The notes below the pieces were generated by a model. The model did not search any database. It was not told the DNA's origin and saw nothing but the letters and a program-made list of their open reading frames with translations. Below, piece after piece: positions 10,183 to 31,808 of a stretch of 36,518 nucleotides of DNA (its first letter is position 1; each line of letters opens with the position of its first letter). Both the position numbers and the translations under genes were made by a program. Origin of the DNA: Mariprofundaceae bacterium (GTDB lineage: Bacteria; Pseudomonadota; Zetaproteobacteria; Mariprofundales; Mariprofundaceae); the NCBI GenBank assembly GCA_015488115.1, contig WFOK01000044.1, forward strand, positions 1-36,518, in the 5' to 3' direction.

Positions 10183-10328
10183 CTGGCCCGGATTTTTCAT
10201 GATGACCATGCGCCGGGATTTGAAATGTCGAGACACAAAAAGGAGGGGCATCGGAATAGACGTGCTATTGAAGATGGGCCCCCTGCATTTCGCGGCGCCT
10301 GGCTTGTCTGTGCGGGCCTCCGTGTTAG
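10183..10328 (+). repeat. Interspersed MITE-like element, copy 1 (internally deleted)
   Basis: A 146-base copy of the element found whole at 27115 and 30645. It begins CTGGCCCGGATTTTTCATGA and shares the core (GCCGGGATTTGAAATGTCGA, then GCATTTCGCGGCGCCTGGCT, TTGTCTGTGCGGGCC). It then jumps directly to the right terminal repeat TCCGTGTTAG, losing about 80 bases that the other copies keep. Its internal hairpin is degraded (GAGACACAAAAAGGAGG). The final TTAG supplies the TAA stop of nsrR on the minus strand. It lies between nsrR and the minus-strand membrane gene. The element encodes no convincing protein. Confidence 0.85.
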
Positions 10329-10792
10329 GTGCTTGCCTCGGTCGCGGGTTTGTCCACTTGCAGTTCCAGGATTTCGATGATGCTGTTTGGCTGGGGGCCC
10401 AGGGCATCGGCCAGCGTGTATTGATCCAGCACGTCCATGAAGGCTCTGCGAGCCTGATACATGACGCGTTTCAGCGTGCAAACTGGGCTGATGGAACAGG
10501 TGTTGGCCGATGCATCGAAACACTCCAGCAGATGCATGTGTGGCTCCATCTGGCGCACGATGGCCCCGACATTGATTTGCTCGGGCGGAAAGGCCAGCCG
10601 CATGCCGCCGCCCTTGCCGCGAAACGTTTCAATCCAGCCGCATTGGGCAAGCCGGTGCACCACCTTGACCAGGTGGTTGCGGGAAATGCCATAGGCTTGC
10701 GACAGCTCGGAGATGGTCACCAAGCGCTCGTTGCGAGCCGCCAGATAGAGCAGCACGCGTAGCGAATAATCAGTGTGGAGCGTTAGTTGCAT
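10325..10792 (-). CDS. nsrR: Rrf2-family nitric-oxide-sensing repressor NsrR
   Basis: NsrR is an iron-sulfur-cluster repressor that releases its operators when nitric oxide attacks the cluster. The product starts MQLTLHTDYSLRVLLYLA, the classic NsrR beginning. It has a winged helix (ISELSQAYGISRNHLVKVVH, RGKGGGMRLAFPP) and three conserved cysteines, C-x7-C-x5-C, in the segment ECFDASANTCSISPVCTLK. An upstream TTG at 10801 has the better-spaced AGGA site, but ATG 10792 fits the family. It is divergent from two globin genes that are plausible NO-detoxifying targets, with a palindrome between them. Its stop codon lies in the end of an interspersed element, so the exact C-terminus (PATEAST) may have been shaped by the insertion. 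Confidence 0.9.
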   Translation of the reverse strand: MQLTLHTDYSLRVLLYLAARNERLVTISELSQAYGISRNHLVKVVHRLAQCGWIETFRGKGGGMRLAFPPEQINVGAIVRQMEPHMHLLECFDASANTCSISPVCTLKRVMYQARRAFMDVLDQYTLADALGPQPNSIIEILELQVDKPATEAST

Positions 10793-10907: not shown

Positions 10908-11273
10908 ATGAGTAGCGTATATGAACAGCTCGGAGGAGAGAAGGCGATCGATGCCGCGGTCGACATCTTCTACCGCAAGGTCCTGAATGACCCCTATGTC
11001 AATCGCTTCTTCGAGGGCGTGGACATGGAGAAGCAGGCGGCCAAGCAGAAGGCGTTTCTGACCATGGTAACCGGCGGTCCGAACAAGTACACGGGCAAGG
11101 ACATGCGGGAAGGGCACAGGCACCTGGTGAAAATGGGACTGAATGACTCTCATTTCGATCACATTATCTGCCATCTTCGCTCCACCCTCGCGGAGCTCGG
11201 CGTGTCACAGGATCTGATTGATACGGTTATCAGCGTTGCGGAGAGCACCCGCGACGACGTGCTGGATCGTTAA
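10908..11273 (+). CDS. glbN: Truncated haemoglobin, group I (TrHbN type)
   Basis: A 121-residue haem protein, the length of a minimal 2-over-2 globin. It starts MSSVYEQLGGEKAIDAAVDI and shows the family landmarks: the double glycine near the N-terminus, Tyr22 in DIFYRKVL (the probable B10 tyrosine), the segment GGPNKYTGKDM, and the proximal histidine His70 in MREGH. Group I truncated globins bind oxygen and nitric oxide and in some bacteria oxidise NO to nitrate. A GGAGGG ribosome binding site precedes the ATG. It faces nsrR across a palindromic operator and is followed 3 bases later by a second, membrane-anchored globin. An NO-detoxifying role is inferred from this context. Confidence 0.93.
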   Translation: MSSVYEQLGGEKAIDAAVDIFYRKVLNDPYVNRFFEGVDMEKQAAKQKAFLTMVTGGPNKYTGKDMREGHRHLVKMGLNDSHFDHIICHLRSTLAELGVSQDLIDTVISVAESTRDDVLDR

Positions 11274-11276
11274 GCC

Positions 11277-11780
11277 ATGCATCTCGAAACCTTTATTCCA
11301 GCTTTCCTTTTGTTCGCCGTTTTGGGGCTGGTGCTGCCAGTGGCGCTGTCCTCCCTTTCGATGAGCGGGCGCGTGGAGGGTGCAGGAGAGAGCGAGGGGG
11401 CTGCACGTTCCAGCGAACCAACGGTTTATGAGCAACTCGGCGGTGCCGCAGCCATTGATGCGGCCGTGGATATCTTCTATCGGCGGGTACTTGCCGATGC
11501 CTATGTCCGGCGCTTTTTCGAGGGCGTGGACATGGAGAAGCAGGCGGCCAAGCAGAAGGCGTTTCTGACCATGGTAACCGGCGGTCCGAACAAGTATACG
11601 GGGAAGGACATGCGGGAAGGGCACAAGCACCTTCTCAAGATGGGTTTGAACGATACCCATTTCGATCATATCCTGACCCACCTTCGTTCCACGCTGGCTG
11701 AACTGAAGGTGCCGGATCACCTGATTCAGACGGTCATCAGCGTGGCTGAAAGCACGAGGGACGACGTTCTGAACCGCTGA
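11277..11780 (+). CDS. Membrane-anchored truncated haemoglobin
   Basis: A 167-residue protein made of two parts. Residues 1-32 form a hydrophobic segment (MHLETFIPAFLLFAVLGLV onwards) that is probably one membrane helix, followed by a polar linker rich in Gly, Glu and Ser to about residue 48. The rest is a complete group I truncated globin starting TVYEQLGGAAAIDAAVDIFY, with the proximal-histidine motif MREGH. The globin part is a paralogue of the gene just upstream; 80 bases are identical between the two. The anchor part is homologous to a free-standing 36-residue peptide encoded at 12905. The linker has no clear cleavage site, so I expect an anchor rather than a signal peptide, but topology is uncertain. 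It probably brings NO or O2 chemistry to the membrane. Confidence 0.88.
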   Translation: MHLETFIPAFLLFAVLGLVLPVALSSLSMSGRVEGAGESEGAARSSEPTVYEQLGGAAAIDAAVDIFYRRVLADAYVRRFFEGVDMEKQAAKQKAFLTMVTGGPNKYTGKDMREGHKHLLKMGLNDTHFDHILTHLRSTLAELKVPDHLIQTVISVAESTRDDVLNR

Positions 11781-26335: not shown

Positions 26336-27118
26336 GTGCTTTATGTAGCAGTCCGTGCGGCCCGACGCGCTGGTGATCTCATTGCGCGTGCCTTCGATGA
26401 GCGTGCACATTTGAAGGTTCATGAAAAGAGTGCACGTGATTTTGTGACCGAAGTGGATGAACGGGCTGAAGGCATCATCATCCGCGAGATCCAGAAGCAT
26501 TATCCCGGCCATGGCATTGTTGCTGAGGAGTCAGGAGGCCGGATCAATGCCAGGGCCGAGATCCAATGGTACATCGATCCATTGGATGGCACGGCCAATT
26601 TTATCCATGGATATCCCCATTTTGCCGTTTCCATTGCGGCCTGGAAGGGGGGGAGGCCATTGCTGGCCGTCATCCATGATCCAATCCGGAATGAAACCTT
26701 CGAGGCCAGAAACGGCAATGGCGCTTTTCTGAACAGGCGCCGGTTGCGTGTCAGCACGACCGAGCAATTGGCGCATGCTTTTTTCGCCTCGGGCCTGCCA
26801 TCTTACCGCAAGGACCAGATCGAACTGTTCCAGCGCCGAATGGATATCTGTATGAGACGGTGTGACGCCTACCGCCGGGGCGGATCGGCAGCGCTTGATC
26901 TGGCTTATGTGGCGGCGGGGCGCATTGATGCCTATTGGGAGGCAGGCCTTTGCTCTTGGGACATTGCGGCGGGCTATCTTCTCGTGCAGGAGGCTGGGGG
27001 CATTGCAACCGACCTTGAAGGCCGAAGCCTGGAGCTTGAAAAGGGGGATATCCTGGCCACGAATGCGAGGTTGCATGCATCATTCGTGCGTTTGTTGGCC
27101 GAGGCGAATGACGTCTAG
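26336..27118 (+). CDS. suhB: Inositol monophosphatase family protein (SuhB)
   Basis: A 260-residue magnesium-dependent phosphatase; in E. coli SuhB also works as an RNA polymerase-associated factor for rRNA transcription. It starts at GTG 26336 (CAGGAG upstream) with LYVAVRAARRAGDLIARAFD. The metal-binding motifs are all there: DFVTEVDERAE, GIVAEESGG, the signature YIDPLDGTANFIHGYPHFAVS and the late motif EAGLCSWDIAAGYLLVQEAGG. Its TAG stop lies in the CTAG that forms the left end of the interspersed element at 27115, and on the other side of that element the convergent lptG also ends in CTAG. Before the insertion the two genes probably shared that CTAG as overlapping stop codons. Confidence 0.95.
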   Translation: MLYVAVRAARRAGDLIARAFDERAHLKVHEKSARDFVTEVDERAEGIIIREIQKHYPGHGIVAEESGGRINARAEIQWYIDPLDGTANFIHGYPHFAVSIAAWKGGRPLLAVIHDPIRNETFEARNGNGAFLNRRRLRVSTTEQLAHAFFASGLPSYRKDQIELFQRRMDICMRRCDAYRRGGSAALDLAYVAAGRIDAYWEAGLCSWDIAAGYLLVQEAGGIATDLEGRSLELEKGDILATNARLHASFVRLLAEANDV

Positions 27119-27340
27119 CCCGGATTTTTTTCATGATGGCCATGTGCCGGGATTTGAAATGTCGAAACCCAAAGGGTTGTATCGGCATGGCCGCATGACT
27201 TGAAGATGGGGCCTGCATTTCGCGGCGCCTGGCTTGTCTGTGTGGGCCGGATGCATGCCTTTGGCTGCGCCTACATGCGCGCCCCGACCTCGCTCATTCG
27301 GCGCCATCCATTCGCGAGCACATTGAAAAATCCGTGCTAG
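27115..27340 (+). repeat. Interspersed MITE-like element, copy 2
   Basis: A 226-base element bounded by CTAG on both sides. The terminal inverted repeats are CTAGCCCGGATTTTT at the left and, read inward from the right, CTAGCACGGATTTTTC (one mismatch). The core contains GGGATTTGAAATGTCGAAAC, an internal hairpin AACCC-AAA-GGGTT, GCATTTCGCGGCGCCTGGCT and CTTGTCTGTGTGGGCC. It lies exactly between convergent suhB and lptG; each TAG stop is taken from one terminal CTAG. No protein is encoded. Terminal inverted repeats, short length and a 4-base YTAR boundary fit a non-autonomous transposable element. Confidence 0.9.
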
Positions 27341-28392
27341 ATGCCTTCCCTGTGAAGGATGAGAAAGACGGATAGGCCTCCGAAGACGAGATTAGGCAGC
27401 CATGCCGCAAAGGCTGGGGGGAGCTGATCCCCGACGGCAAGCAGGCCGCTTGCATTTCCGGCTACATAGTAAAGCAGCCCCACGGAAATGGATGTGACCA
27501 ATCCCCATGAGGCAGCGCGCGTGCGGTTGCTGACATGAACGCAGAGCGCCACAGCCAGCAGGGCCATGAACAGGCATGCCAGCGGGGCAGCCAATTTCTT
27601 GTGGAAGGCGTAGGCATAGGCTGCCACCTTGAGTCCGGCATGTTCAAGGCTCGAGATGTAGTGGCGCAGTTGCATGAGATTCATTTCATCCGGTTCCGGC
27701 GGTCGTGTCGCCTGGGGCGCTGCCTTGGATGGCAGGGTCATGACATCTTGCTGCTGCACCTTCAGGCCCGTCTGGTCGGGGGTGCTGATGAAAACGTCAT
27801 GCAGGATCCACTCTTCCTGGTTATAGATCGCTTTCTGACTTTCGATTTTTCTTAGCCAGTGTCCCCTGCCATCGGATTCAAGGATGACCACAGCGTATTG
27901 ATTGCGCGCCAGCGGGGTGATCTTGACAAACCTGTGGCCATCCTTGAGCCATTGGACGGCCTGGTCGGGTCGCTCAAGATGTTTGATGTGAACCTTTTCG
28001 ATGCGTTGAAGCTGGTGGTTCGTGATCGGGGTGACCCACTGGCCTATGGCGAAGGTGAGCAGGCCTGCAAGCACGGAGACGCTGAGAATCGGTGTAACCA
28101 GCTTGTTGATACCGAGACCGGCGGCCCGGATCGCGATGATTTCATTGTGGCGCGACAGATCGATGAGGTAAAGGCTGGTTGATACGAGGATCACGATGGG
28201 CATGAACTCCGCGATCATGAAAGGGGACTTGAGGGCGAGATACTCGATCAGCAGGGGGAGCGTGAAATCTTCTCCGAGGAAGCGGGTCTTGTCGAAGGTT
28301 TCAATGATGATGTACACGGCAAGCAATGCCGTCAGCGTTGACAGGGAACGTTTTAGGCAGCCGGAGAAGATCCAGTGGAAGATGATGGGCAT
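27337..28392 (-). CDS. lptG: Lipopolysaccharide export permease LptG
   Basis: An inner-membrane subunit of the LptB2FG transporter, which extracts lipopolysaccharide and hands it to the periplasmic Lpt bridge. The 351-residue protein has the LptF/LptG plan: helices near the N-terminus (LSTLTALLAVYIIIETFDKT, FMIAEFMPIVILVSTSLYL), the conserved NEIIAIRAAGLG segment, a periplasmic beta-jellyroll of about 150 residues, and C-terminal helices (FHKKLAAPLACLFMALLAVA). The DxTRFLxE-like DKTRFLGED favours LptG over LptF. I chose ATG 28392 because the upstream extension runs into hflK. The usual neighbour lptF is not present; the gene stands alone, divergent from hflK. Its stop codon TAG is formed by the end of the interspersed element. 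Confidence 0.9.
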   Translation of the reverse strand: MPIIFHWIFSGCLKRSLSTLTALLAVYIIIETFDKTRFLGEDFTLPLLIEYLALKSPFMIAEFMPIVILVSTSLYLIDLSRHNEIIAIRAAGLGINKLVTPILSVSVLAGLLTFAIGQWVTPITNHQLQRIEKVHIKHLERPDQAVQWLKDGHRFVKITPLARNQYAVVILESDGRGHWLRKIESQKAIYNQEEWILHDVFISTPDQTGLKVQQQDVMTLPSKAAPQATRPPEPDEMNLMQLRHYISSLEHAGLKVAAYAYAFHKKLAAPLACLFMALLAVALCVHVSNRTRAASWGLVTSISVGLLYYVAGNASGLLAVGDQLPPAFAAWLPNLVFGGLSVFLILHREGI

Positions 28393-28496
28393 GTGCGGGA
28401 ATATAGCATTGGCCAGATACCCATGCACGGTAATGGGTGAAAACTGGAGCAGCACTGCTACACTGCGCAGCTTCAATGAACCGTCGGAGGTCAAAC

Positions 28497-29576
28497 ATGC
28501 CTTGGAGTGATCCAAACCAGCAGAACAACCCTTGGGGTCGACGGCCATCAGGTGGCCAGACGCCGCCAGATCTAGATGAGGTGATTCGCCGCCTCCAAGA
28601 GCGTTTCTCCGGTGTGTTTGGCGGCGGATCGGGCGGTGGACGTTCCGCCCCATCATGGAACAGGGGCATGATGGGAGGACTGGCCGGTGTCATCTTCCTG
28701 ATCTGGGCCGCCTCGGGGTTCTACATGGTGGCCGCCGATGAAGAGGCCGTTGTCCTTCGTTTCGGCAAGCATGTCGCCACCAAGGGCCCCGGACTGAACT
28801 GGCATTTCCCTTATCCGATCGAAACGGTGGAGAAGTTGCCCGTGACACGCGTCCAGCGCCTGGAAATCGGCATGAGGCGTTTTCCTGACGGAACCGTGCG
28901 CAAGCGCACGGATGAGTCCCTGATGTTGACCAAGGATGAAAACATCGTGGACATCTCGTTCATCGTTCAATACAAGATCAAGAACGTGGAGGATTATCTG
29001 TTCAACATCGACGCGCCAACGAAGACGGTTCGAGATGCGGCTGAATCGGCGATTCGCGAGGTTATCGGACGCACGCTCATCGATGATGTGCTGACTTCCC
29101 GGAAGGCTGAGGTTGAAATCGAGACCGAGAAATTGATCCAGAGCATTCTCGATGGCTATGAAGCCGGCATTTCCATTACGACCGTCAAGCTCCAGGATGT
29201 GCAGCCGCCGGAGAGGGTGATCAAGGAATTCAAGGACGTGGCATCTGCCCGCGAGGACCGCGAGCGCGCCAAGAATGAGGCCGAGGCCTATGCCAACGAC
29301 ATCATCCCGAAGGCTCGGGGCGAGGCCAAGAAGATGGTGCTTGATGCCCAGGCATACCGCAAGGATGTCGTGGAGCGCGCAAAGGGCGAGGCGCAGCGGT
29401 TCAGGGACCTGCTGAAAGAGTATCGCAAGGCACCGGAAGTGACGAGGAAGCGCCTGTATCTTGAAACGATGCAGGAAGTGCTTGCCGGCATGGACAAGAT
29501 CATTGTCGATCGTTCCGTGGCAGACAAGGTGTTGCCCTATCTGCCGCTTGATCGGCGGAAAGTGGAGGTTAAGTGA
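28497..29576 (+). CDS. hflK: FtsH protease regulator HflK
   Basis: HflK forms with HflC a large membrane cage around the FtsH protease and tunes its activity. The 359-residue protein starts MPWSDPNQQNNPWGRRPSGG after CGGAGG, and has a Gly/Pro-rich cytosolic N-terminus, one membrane helix (GLAGVIFLIWAASGFYMV), then the SPFH domain (ADEEAVVLRFGKHV, DESLMLTKDENIVDISFIVQ, AAESAIREVIGRTLIDDVLT). A long coiled coil with KNEAEAYANDIIPKARGEA follows. An in-frame start at 28437 exists, but 28497 fits the family. It overlaps hflC (TGATG) and is divergent from lptG. Confidence 0.96.
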   Translation: MPWSDPNQQNNPWGRRPSGGQTPPDLDEVIRRLQERFSGVFGGGSGGGRSAPSWNRGMMGGLAGVIFLIWAASGFYMVAADEEAVVLRFGKHVATKGPGLNWHFPYPIETVEKLPVTRVQRLEIGMRRFPDGTVRKRTDESLMLTKDENIVDISFIVQYKIKNVEDYLFNIDAPTKTVRDAAESAIREVIGRTLIDDVLTSRKAEVEIETEKLIQSILDGYEAGISITTVKLQDVQPPERVIKEFKDVASAREDRERAKNEAEAYANDIIPKARGEAKKMVLDAQAYRKDVVERAKGEAQRFRDLLKEYRKAPEVTRKRLYLETMQEVLAGMDKIIVDRSVADKVLPYLPLDRRKVEVK

Positions 29577-30445
29577 TGACACCGAAACAGATGCTGTTGA
29601 CCATTGTCGTCATTGCGCTGATCGGCCTCGTTGGCAGCAGCGCTTTCATCGTGGACCAGCGGGAGCAGACCCTGGTGCTTCAGTTCGGCAATCCGGTCAA
29701 GGTTGTCAAGGAGGCGGGTTTGCATTTCAAGCTGCCGTGGCAGAGCGTCAGCAGGTTTGATCGTCGTCTGCTGGAGAGCGACGCGCCGGTCAACGAGGTG
29801 ATCACGAAGGACAAGAAAACGATCCTTGTTGATAACTACACGCGCTGGAAGATCGTTGATCCTCTCAAGGTCTATCAGGTGGCAAGGGACCAGAGGGGTG
29901 TCATGGCCCGCATGGATGACGTGGTGCGGGGAAAGGTGCGTGAAGTGCTGGGTCAGCACACGCTCCACGAAATCGTGTCCGGGGGCGAGAATGCCAATCT
30001 GCGCGCCGAGTTGATGCTCAAGATTCGGGACCGAGCCGAGCAGGATGTCGCGGCGTTTGGCATCCATATCGAGGACGTGCGCATCAAGCGCGCGGATCTT
30101 CCTCCCGAGAACTCCGATGCCGTTTATCAGCGCATGAAGGCCGAGCGTCAGCGGATCGCAAAGGAGTACCGCTCCGAAGGTGAAGAGGCCGCCAAGGAAA
30201 TCCGGGCCCAGGCGGAGAAGGAGCGTAAGATCATCCTGGCCAACGCCTATCGTGATGCCCAGATCATCAGGGGTCAGGCGGATGCCGAGGCGACGGCCAT
30301 CTATGCCAGTGCGCACAGGCTGGATCCGGAGTTCTATGCTTTCCTTCGCTCGTTGAATGCCTATCGCGCCTCTCTGGTGGATCAGACCCGGTTGATCATC
30401 ACCCCGGGCTCCGAGTTCTTCCATTTCTTTGAACAGTCCAAGTAG
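29576..30445 (+). CDS. hflC: FtsH protease regulator HflC
   Basis: The partner of HflK in the FtsH-associated SPFH complex. The 289-residue protein begins MTPKQMLLTIVVIALIGLVG, a signal-anchor helix, followed by SAFIVDQREQTLVLQFGNPV, the SPFH core (KKTILVDNYTRWKIVDPLKV, VVRGKVREVLGQHTLHEIVS) and a coiled coil (MKAERQRIAKEYRSEGEEAA, ADAEATAIYASAHRLDPEFY). The start overlaps the hflK stop by one base, so translation is coupled; a GTG one codon earlier is possible. The DUF2065 gene follows 17 bases later as in the enterobacterial hfl operon. Confidence 0.96.
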   Translation: MTPKQMLLTIVVIALIGLVGSSAFIVDQREQTLVLQFGNPVKVVKEAGLHFKLPWQSVSRFDRRLLESDAPVNEVITKDKKTILVDNYTRWKIVDPLKVYQVARDQRGVMARMDDVVRGKVREVLGQHTLHEIVSGGENANLRAELMLKIRDRAEQDVAAFGIHIEDVRIKRADLPPENSDAVYQRMKAERQRIAKEYRSEGEEAAKEIRAQAEKERKIILANAYRDAQIIRGQADAEATAIYASAHRLDPEFYAFLRSLNAYRASLVDQTRLIITPGSEFFHFFEQSK

Positions 30446-30462
30446 CGGGGGCTGATGGGGGC

Positions 30463-30648
30463 ATGCGTGATTTGTGGGCGGCCCTGGGCTTGGTGCTGGT
30501 CCTTGAGGGGGCCGTGTATGCTCTTTTCCCCCAGGCCATGCTCGAGATGATGCGCCGCATGCAGGATGCATCCCCGGCGACGCTGAGACTGGCCGGCATC
30601 GCTGCGGTGGCTGTCGGCTGGGCGATTGTCTGGTTTGCCAGGCACTAG
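30463..30648 (+). CDS. DUF2065 small membrane protein (YjeT-like)
   Basis: A 61-residue protein with two hydrophobic helices (LWAALGLVLVLEGAVYALFP and AGIAAVAVGWAIVWFA), matching DUF2065/YjeT, which lies after hflC in many Gammaproteobacteria. Function is unknown; its fixed position suggests a link to the HflKC-FtsH complex. The downstream gene usual in such operons, purA, is missing; instead an interspersed element begins exactly at the stop codon, whose TAG is part of the element boundary CTAG. Confidence 0.9.
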   Translation: MRDLWAALGLVLVLEGAVYALFPQAMLEMMRRMQDASPATLRLAGIAAVAVGWAIVWFARH

Positions 30649-30897
30649 CCCGGATTTTTCAATGTGATCGCGAATGGATGGTGCCGGATGAGCGAGGTCG
30701 GGGCGTGCATGTGGGCAAGCAGTATGGCCGTCGCCATGGTTTGCAGCCAAAGGTGCGCGTCCGGCCCGCACAGACAGGCCAGATGCCGTGAAATGCAGGC
30801 CCCATCTTCAAGTCATGCGTCCATGCCGGTGCAACCCCTTTTGGGGTTTCGACATTTCACATCCCGGCGCATGGTCATCGTGAAAAATTCGGGCTAG
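30645..30897 (-). repeat. Interspersed MITE-like element, copy 3 (inverted, longest)
   Basis: A 253-base copy in the opposite orientation to copies 1 and 2. Both ends are CTAG; read inward the termini are CTAGCCCGGATTTTTCAATG and CTAGCCCGAATTTTTCACG, pairing as terminal inverted repeats. Read on the minus strand the core has GGGATGTGAAATGTCGAAAC, the hairpin AACCCC-AAAA-GGGGTT, CATGACTTGAAGATGGGGCC, and near the end CTCATCCGGCACCATCCATT, all shared with copy 2. It carries about 27 extra bases that copy 2 lacks. It separates the convergent DUF2065 gene and the cyclic-nucleotide-domain gene, giving each its TAG stop. Confidence 0.9.
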
Positions 30898-31808
30898 AGT
30901 GCTTTCCAGGCCTCCCTTGAGGGCAGGTGGTCCATGGTCAACGCCCGGGCCTTTTCTTCTCCCACGAGCGCGGACAGTGAGCGATAGGAGCGTTGCAACT
31001 TGTCTCCGACGCAATGGTACAGGGCATCACGAAATGCCGGGTAGCGGCGCTTCCATGCCAGAACGGACTCCTTGCGTATGGTCAGAAGCTTCAGCGGGGT
31101 AATTGCACTGACCGTGGCGGCATGCGGCATGTCGCAGACCAGGGCAATCTCTCCGATTTCATCGCCCGGCCCCGCCTTGGCCAGCACCAGTTTTCGCTCG
31201 GCATCTTCAGGATGGGGGATTGAAATCTCGGCCTCGCCCTGCAATACGAGGTACATTTCGCCCTCTTCTCGTTGCCCCTCTTGAAAGAGCTTCTCTCCAG
31301 CCTCAAGGGAGAGAATGCGACCATTGTGGAGGATCACTTCCCGTACAGCTTGGGGGAGGACGGCAAACAGGGGGCTGACCGCCAGGGCACTGGCCGCCAC
31401 GCGTTGTTCCGCCAGTTGACTGAGGGCCCTGAAAAAGCGTCCGTTGTTGTCTAGAATCCGCCGCACGGCATCACCAGGGATCTCGTAGAGTGCGCTGGGT
31501 TCAATGGAGATGACACTTGCCCCTGCAGGACTGCCGTAAAGGATGGATGCCTCCCCGAACACATCGCCTGGCGTGATGGAGCCCACCTCAATGATGCGTT
31601 CGCCATGCCTTTTGTTGACCTTGAGCAGTCCTTCATGAACAAGGAAAAGGGTTTCCGGGCGTTGACCTTCTTGAATGATGGGAACGCCCGGAAGATAATG
31701 CGTACGGTTTGCCATGGTCTCCAGGAAGGCTCGTTCATCGGGGAAAAGGACAGCAAGAATGGGAAAGTGCTGCGCGTCAAGCCGGGTGTTGTCTTCATGC
31801 GTGCTCAT
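30894..31808 (-). CDS. Protein with two cyclic-nucleotide-binding domains, no DNA-binding domain
   Basis: A 304-residue soluble protein with two successive beta-barrels of the cNMP-binding type. The first (about residues 12-130) has VPIIQEGQRPETLFLVHEGL and DVFGEASILYGSPAGASVIS. The second (about 150-265) has EKLFQEGQREEGEMYLVLQG and DEIGEIALVCDMPHAATVSA. The order resembles the regulatory subunit of protein kinase A or cNMP-domain adaptor proteins. The last 40 residues are helical without a helix-turn-helix. There is no enzyme or channel domain, so the output is unknown. The start at 31808 (MSTHEDNTRLDAQHFPILAV) avoids overlap with the ferredoxin upstream region. It is convergent to the hfl operon; its stop lies in the end of the interspersed element. 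Confidence 0.87.
   Translation of the reverse strand: MSTHEDNTRLDAQHFPILAVLFPDERAFLETMANRTHYLPGVPIIQEGQRPETLFLVHEGLLKVNKRHGERIIEVGSITPGDVFGEASILYGSPAGASVISIEPSALYEIPGDAVRRILDNNGRFFRALSQLAEQRVAASALAVSPLFAVLPQAVREVILHNGRILSLEAGEKLFQEGQREEGEMYLVLQGEAEISIPHPEDAERKLVLAKAGPGDEIGEIALVCDMPHAATVSAITPLKLLTIRKESVLAWKRRYPAFRDALYHCVGDKLQRSYRSLSALVGEEKARALTMDHLPSREAWKAL

Follow-up and report, generated by a model that had tools for sequence, protein, structure and literature searches.

A short, gene-less mobile element was found to occur mostly at stop codons in the genome of a Zetaproteobacteria MAG (designated G000; 1.69 Mb, 72 contigs), and in part at sites where the stops of two convergent genes overlap within a single YTAR tetranucleotide (hereafter called joints). 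The window analysed here (36,518 nt) corresponds to contig C44 of this genome and contains three copies of the element, flanked by YTAR sequences that are mostly CTAG. We estimate at about 85% the probability that this distribution is best explained by a MITE that targets YTAR, with a preference for CTAG and for GC-rich flanks, and whose insertions have been filtered by selection against gene damage.

In the window, copy 1 (10183..10328, + strand; 146 bp) carries an internal deletion; on its left side it ends in CTGG, away from any gene end, and its right duplication, TTAG (10325-10328), holds the TAA stop of an Rrf2/NsrR-type regulator gene (10325..10792, - strand). Copy 2 (27115..27340, + strand; 226 bp, both CTAG included) lies between suhB, of the inositol monophosphatase family (26336..27118, + strand), which has its TAG stop on the left CTAG (27115..27118), and lptG, encoding an LptF/LptG permease (27337..28476, - strand), which has its TAG stop on the right CTAG (27337..27340). 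Copy 3 (30645..30897; 253 bp, both CTAG included) is on the - strand, opposite to copy 2, and similarly separates a DUF2065 gene (30463..30648, + strand; TAG stop on the left CTAG, 30645..30648) from a gene encoding a cyclic-nucleotide-binding (cNMP) domain (30894..31808, - strand; TAG stop on the right CTAG, 30894..30897). Pfam matches confirm the identity of these five genes. The original prediction had placed the stops of all adjacent genes on the element boundaries, and the sequence and the gene calls agree with it at each of the five 3' gene ends concerned. Opposite the regulator gene, positions 10908-11780 encode two adjacent bacterial-type (truncated) globins that are tandem paralogues, with 78% identity over a 300-nt stretch. 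When known RNA families were searched for in the window, tRNA alone was matched.

The full-length element is of ca. 253 bp (consensus 253 bp), with the 26 two-ended copies of G000 ranging from 96 to 259 bp, and most copies display 89-96% identity to the consensus, with outliers on C69 (84%) and C30 (61%). It is bounded by the terminal inverted repeats CCCGGATTTTTCATG, its ends being paired in inverted orientation over 17-19 bp (CTAGCCCGGATTTTTCATG); together with the flanking target, the ends have the form YTAR-CCCGGATT[T/A]TTCATG. The corresponding RNA has a strong fold in which the ends are paired (z = -4.6). No transposase gene is present and only marginal ORF calls occur inside. The element shows three of the four features that define a MITE, and MITE is therefore the right kind of name for it: it is short and lacks genes, it has inverted repeats, and it duplicates a target site that is empty in a relative. 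The fourth feature is an autonomous insertion sequence with matching ends, and none was found with the transposase family models tried. Two 96-bp copies on contig C70 (17227-17322 and 18425-18520) share an identical internal deletion, match at 90 of 96 positions and flank a single Mrp/NUBPL-type gene in opposite orientations; this internally deleted derivative seems to have itself transposed.

A close relative of G000, the isolate J030, contains no element end at ≤2 mismatches, its nucleotide identity with G000 being ca. 80-89% around most sites. In J030, the stops of suhB and lptG overlap in one CTAG and those of the DUF2065 and cNMP genes in one TTAA, both with a gap of -4. Relatives without the element at these sites thus have the joint that had been predicted for them, and the suhB/lptG pair provides an actual example of convergent genes sharing one CTAG as overlapping stops; both genes are also joined in one TTAA in the same-genus genome S012_125 (L142) and in the L153 genome. 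A single YTAR in J030 versus YTAR-element-YTAR in G000, the stops of both genomes being aligned column for column, was found at C30, at the two C44 sites, at C60 and at C9:21467, and the same pattern with column-matched stops recurs at C70:18425, C4 and C48. At C51 and C9:24211, J030 has a single CTAG and one of the G000 duplications has decayed. Since J030 combines a single YTAR with stops that align to those of G000, the stops must be older than the element, and insertion left the protein ends as they were, in line with the earlier proposal that insertion with duplication spares both proteins. In addition, non-palindromic duplications are direct in six cases (TTAG/TTAG at C19, C70:17227, L310, L311 and L313; CTAA/CTAA at L312) and inverted in none, and YTAR is therefore the target and lies outside the element.

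The YTARs at the ends of the element are thus target-site duplications, and the YTAR stop is older than the element and was copied upon insertion. The proposed tie between element ends and stop codons holds in that the flanking YTARs are stops, but these come from the target and not from the element. A different reading would have CTAG as part of the terminal repeat, or TA alone duplicated, with the element creating stops by truncating or fusing genes; CTAG is indeed a palindrome found at most ends, combinations such as CTAG/CTAA flank a few copies, and for IS711 the duplication has been reported to be limited to the TA of its YTAR target (PMC2266754). This is highly improbable: both an element-borne CTAG and a TA-only duplication are rejected by the direct TTAG/TTAG and CTAA/CTAA pairs, with no inverted pair across copies, together with the empty sites of J030, in which the stops already exist.

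Across the whole genome, copy 2 was matched 37 times, and 58 end motifs were found when ≤3 mismatches were allowed. The 26 contigs with end motifs (926 kb) were analysed using genes called with a dicodon model, all gene ends counted below being those of our own gene caller; these contigs were picked for their element ends, a choice that does not affect comparisons made within contigs. Among the 26 two-ended copies, both flanking YTARs are stops of a convergent pair in 8, one is a stop in 14 and none in 4. When compared to the 363 non-coding YTAR sites, copies with any stop (22/26) largely exceed the 8.3 expected (hypergeometric p = 1e-8), as do joint copies (8/26 versus 0.9 expected; p = 2e-7). 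Both results were stable across gene-call thresholds of 8 to 40, and chance coincidence was rejected. Element-free YTARs on the same contigs (n = 769) are distributed among coding (423), intergenic (247), one-stop (94) and shared-stop (5) positions. Six further copies have a single recognised end, one of which (C47) is at a stop. Mapping all copies, as had been suggested originally, thus places most of them at stop codons rather than away from them. The idea of a niche at shared joints holds for 8 copies, or 9 of 26 if C4 is added (its J030 site being a joint), whereas most of the others sit at a single stop. At the other joint copies the flanking genes are ordinary, namely APH-type kinase/HtpG, TatC/LysR, SulP/LppC-like, histidine phosphatase/unknown, PurB/IspH and Mrp/ABC-2 permease.

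Related ends were detected in 28 of 78 Zetaproteobacteria genomes. Stop coincidence is weaker there (19/50 copies, of which G013 accounts for 5/7, S012_125 for 5/14 and the others for 9/29) against a background of stops at 17/129 non-coding sites, and only 1 of the 50 copies is at a joint. One S012_125 copy (L204), mispaired in the automated count, is in fact at a stop. Minimal forms of 34 bp, which resemble a REP-sized palindrome and consist of little more than the two abutting ends enclosed by YTAR copies, were also seen in other Zetaproteobacteria (for instance at positions 1487-1520 of each of L312, L326 and L327).

By logic, a 4-nt overlap between convergent stops can only be spelled YTAR, and each YTAR is able to encode such an overlap, TGA being excluded on both strands because overlapping stops have their central letters in common; joints therefore keep the target for as long as the overlap lasts. 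In the proposed mechanism, the non-autonomous element would insert into a 4-bp YTAR and duplicate it, CTAG with G/C-rich flanks being preferred. At a joint, where the TAR of the plus-strand gene and the YTA of the minus-strand gene overlap on the central TA, insertion would provide each gene with its own stop, since both stops lie in one YTAR, and neither protein would be altered. At a single YTAR stop one gene would likewise be spared, and insertions within genes would be lost. Because YTAR is rare in this GC-rich genome, gene ends would constitute most surviving sites and shared joints would be largely filled. The copies, their duplications, the empty sites, the coincidence with stops and the enrichment are observed, whereas the type of transposase, the action of selection and the cause of any additional enrichment at joints are the parts of this scheme that we infer.

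The YTAR sites of J030 (753 kb) were used as an estimate of the ancestral target pool. By J030 site class, those filled in G000 amount to 7/11 joints, 5/91 free single stops (2/26 convergent and 3/59 tandem), 4/316 intergenic sites and 0/1022 coding sites. Joint totals are small (13 in G000 and 11 in J030). Joints are filled more often than convergent single stops (7/11 versus 2/26, p = 9e-4). At convergent CTAG sites of G000, 8/10 joints, 6/15 single stops and 0/6 sites with no stop are filled, the difference between joints and single stops being not significant (p = 0.10). A logistic model of the 363 G000 sites indicates independent effects of CTAG over other YTARs (p = 0.009), of flank GC at ±3 (p = 0.014), of the stop (p = 0.013) and of the joint (p = 0.013). 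Target preference and loss of harmful insertions account for most of the pattern. The removal of harmful insertions alone gives no obvious reason why joints are filled more than convergent single stops. The rarity of joints among copies of other Zetaproteobacteria also counts against the explanation favoured here, as does the failure of the profile searches to reveal a transposase with these ends. The joint excess may partly result from a faster turnover of single-stop YTARs between genomes; it also suggests some extra pull toward joints, either by direct targeting or by a benefit of separating overlapping genes.

Direct targeting would imply that the transposase reads more than YTAR, joints being chosen at insertion and not left by selection. 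CTAG is favoured at filled sites (21/26 versus 138/337 other sites, p = 1e-4), as is G/C at the second and third positions of the flanks, and IS711 displays an unexplained preference for a single site among about fifteen YTARs (PMC2266754). Such targeting is nevertheless unlikely, given that the stop and joint effects persist after correction for CTAG and flank GC, that the flanks of the copies show no motif of greater length and that the stop bias is much weaker in other genera.

Alternatively, the element could be kept at joints for its benefit, as a two-way insulator, a spacer or an mRNA 3' structure between overlapping convergent genes that lack room for a terminator. The strong RNA fold would fit this role, as would the persistence of the joint effect after target preference is taken into account and the filling of joints above that of convergent single stops with a gap ≤24 nt (7/11 versus 0/14, p = 7e-4). 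This is rather improbable: copies 2 and 3 contain no terminator-like site, which rejects an intrinsic terminator inside them; the orientation bias relative to the stop is not significant (A end 9, B end 5), which speaks against an orientation-dependent function; copy length varies freely from 96 to 259 bp; and few of the copies found in other genera lie at joints. That convergent overlapping stops form a dedicated safe harbour, with CTAG joints nearly saturated (8/10) via targeting or benefit beyond mere survival, is possible but doubtful. The reading we retain remains that of a YTAR-targeting MITE whose harmful insertions were probably removed by selection.

Like the element described here, which inserts at a harmless site at the 3' end of genes, Tn7 inserts at attTn7 downstream of glmS; it uses one conserved site and a dedicated targeting protein, whereas our element uses a 4-bp motif that itself encodes stops. 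REP/BIME palindromes are extragenic and tend toward the 3' ends of genes, features which they share with the element. They differ from it in being palindromes of 20-40 bp (PMC3733652), while the element has 250 bp, a 4-bp duplication and empty sites. In Coxiella, QMITE2 is also a MITE with a stable stem that can be found at a gene 3' end, but it has duplications of 7-11 nt that are variable in sequence, and one copy lengthens the 3' end of enhC (PMC5896051), thereby altering the protein end that our element spares. The element resembles MITEs in general in being short and gene-less, with inverted repeats, target duplication, many copies and empty sites in a relative, and departs from them in its strong concentration at stop codons and shared convergent stops. 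In a literature search that covered few subscription journals, overlapping stops were nowhere found described as a place where transposons or MITEs accumulate, and no report was found of YTAR/CTAG MITEs at stop codons or of these end sequences.

As for a parent, profile searches with PF13701, PF01609 and PF13546 revealed no transposase flanked by the element ends. A YTAR target is common to the element, to IS5 (PMC10359306) and to IS711 (PMC2266754); the element differs from IS711 in the direct repetition of 4 bp versus TA only, and from the IS5 group, compared here by target and transposase profile, in that G000 has no PF01609 (IS4/IS5-type) match, which rejects such a transposase as the parent within G000. 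In G001, G066, G092 and G100, no contig with a PF01609 match has a matching end. An IS1380 derivative was discarded, since PF13701 had no match in G000 and none in the 7 genomes searched, among them five element-bearing ones. A target duplication conserved at exactly 4 bp is common to IS701 (PMC2266710) and the element, but the IS701 end consensus, ---YACT-Y--YR (PMC2266710), does not fit CCCGGATTTTTCATG, and no PF13546 match occurs in G000, G001 or G013, so that an IS701 derivative was rejected as well. No homologue of the whole element was found in plasmids or phages. Short end matches in plasmids led to a similar 187-bp element in a Magnetococcus massalia plasmid (L339, 2501-2687) and to nothing else usable; three viral contigs bear an end, one of which (L337, 376-521) contains a MITE-like element of ~145 bp with no transposase. 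The occurrence beyond Zetaproteobacteria of these short elements, with their CTAGCCCGGATATTTCATG-type or CTAGCCCGAACATTTCACG-type ends, suggests that the parent IS is widespread.

Since all 4-nt overlaps of convergent stops are YTARs, and YTAR is the target of known transposons, joints offer these a natural place to land without harm. Should this hold generally, it would account for the sites at which YTAR transposons and MITEs build up in compact genomes, and pairs of filled and empty joints would make it possible to measure what changes when overlapping convergent genes are separated. A possible side effect also becomes testable, namely that a genome bearing the element avoids YTAR within its coding sequence. 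Relative to the trinucleotide expectation, the observed/expected ratio of coding YTAR is 0.65 in G000 (CTAG 0.74) versus 0.85 in J030 (CTAG 1.05), which, for these two genomes, may reflect target avoidance in the genes of the element-bearing one or codon drift; control tetramers agree between the coding sequences of both.
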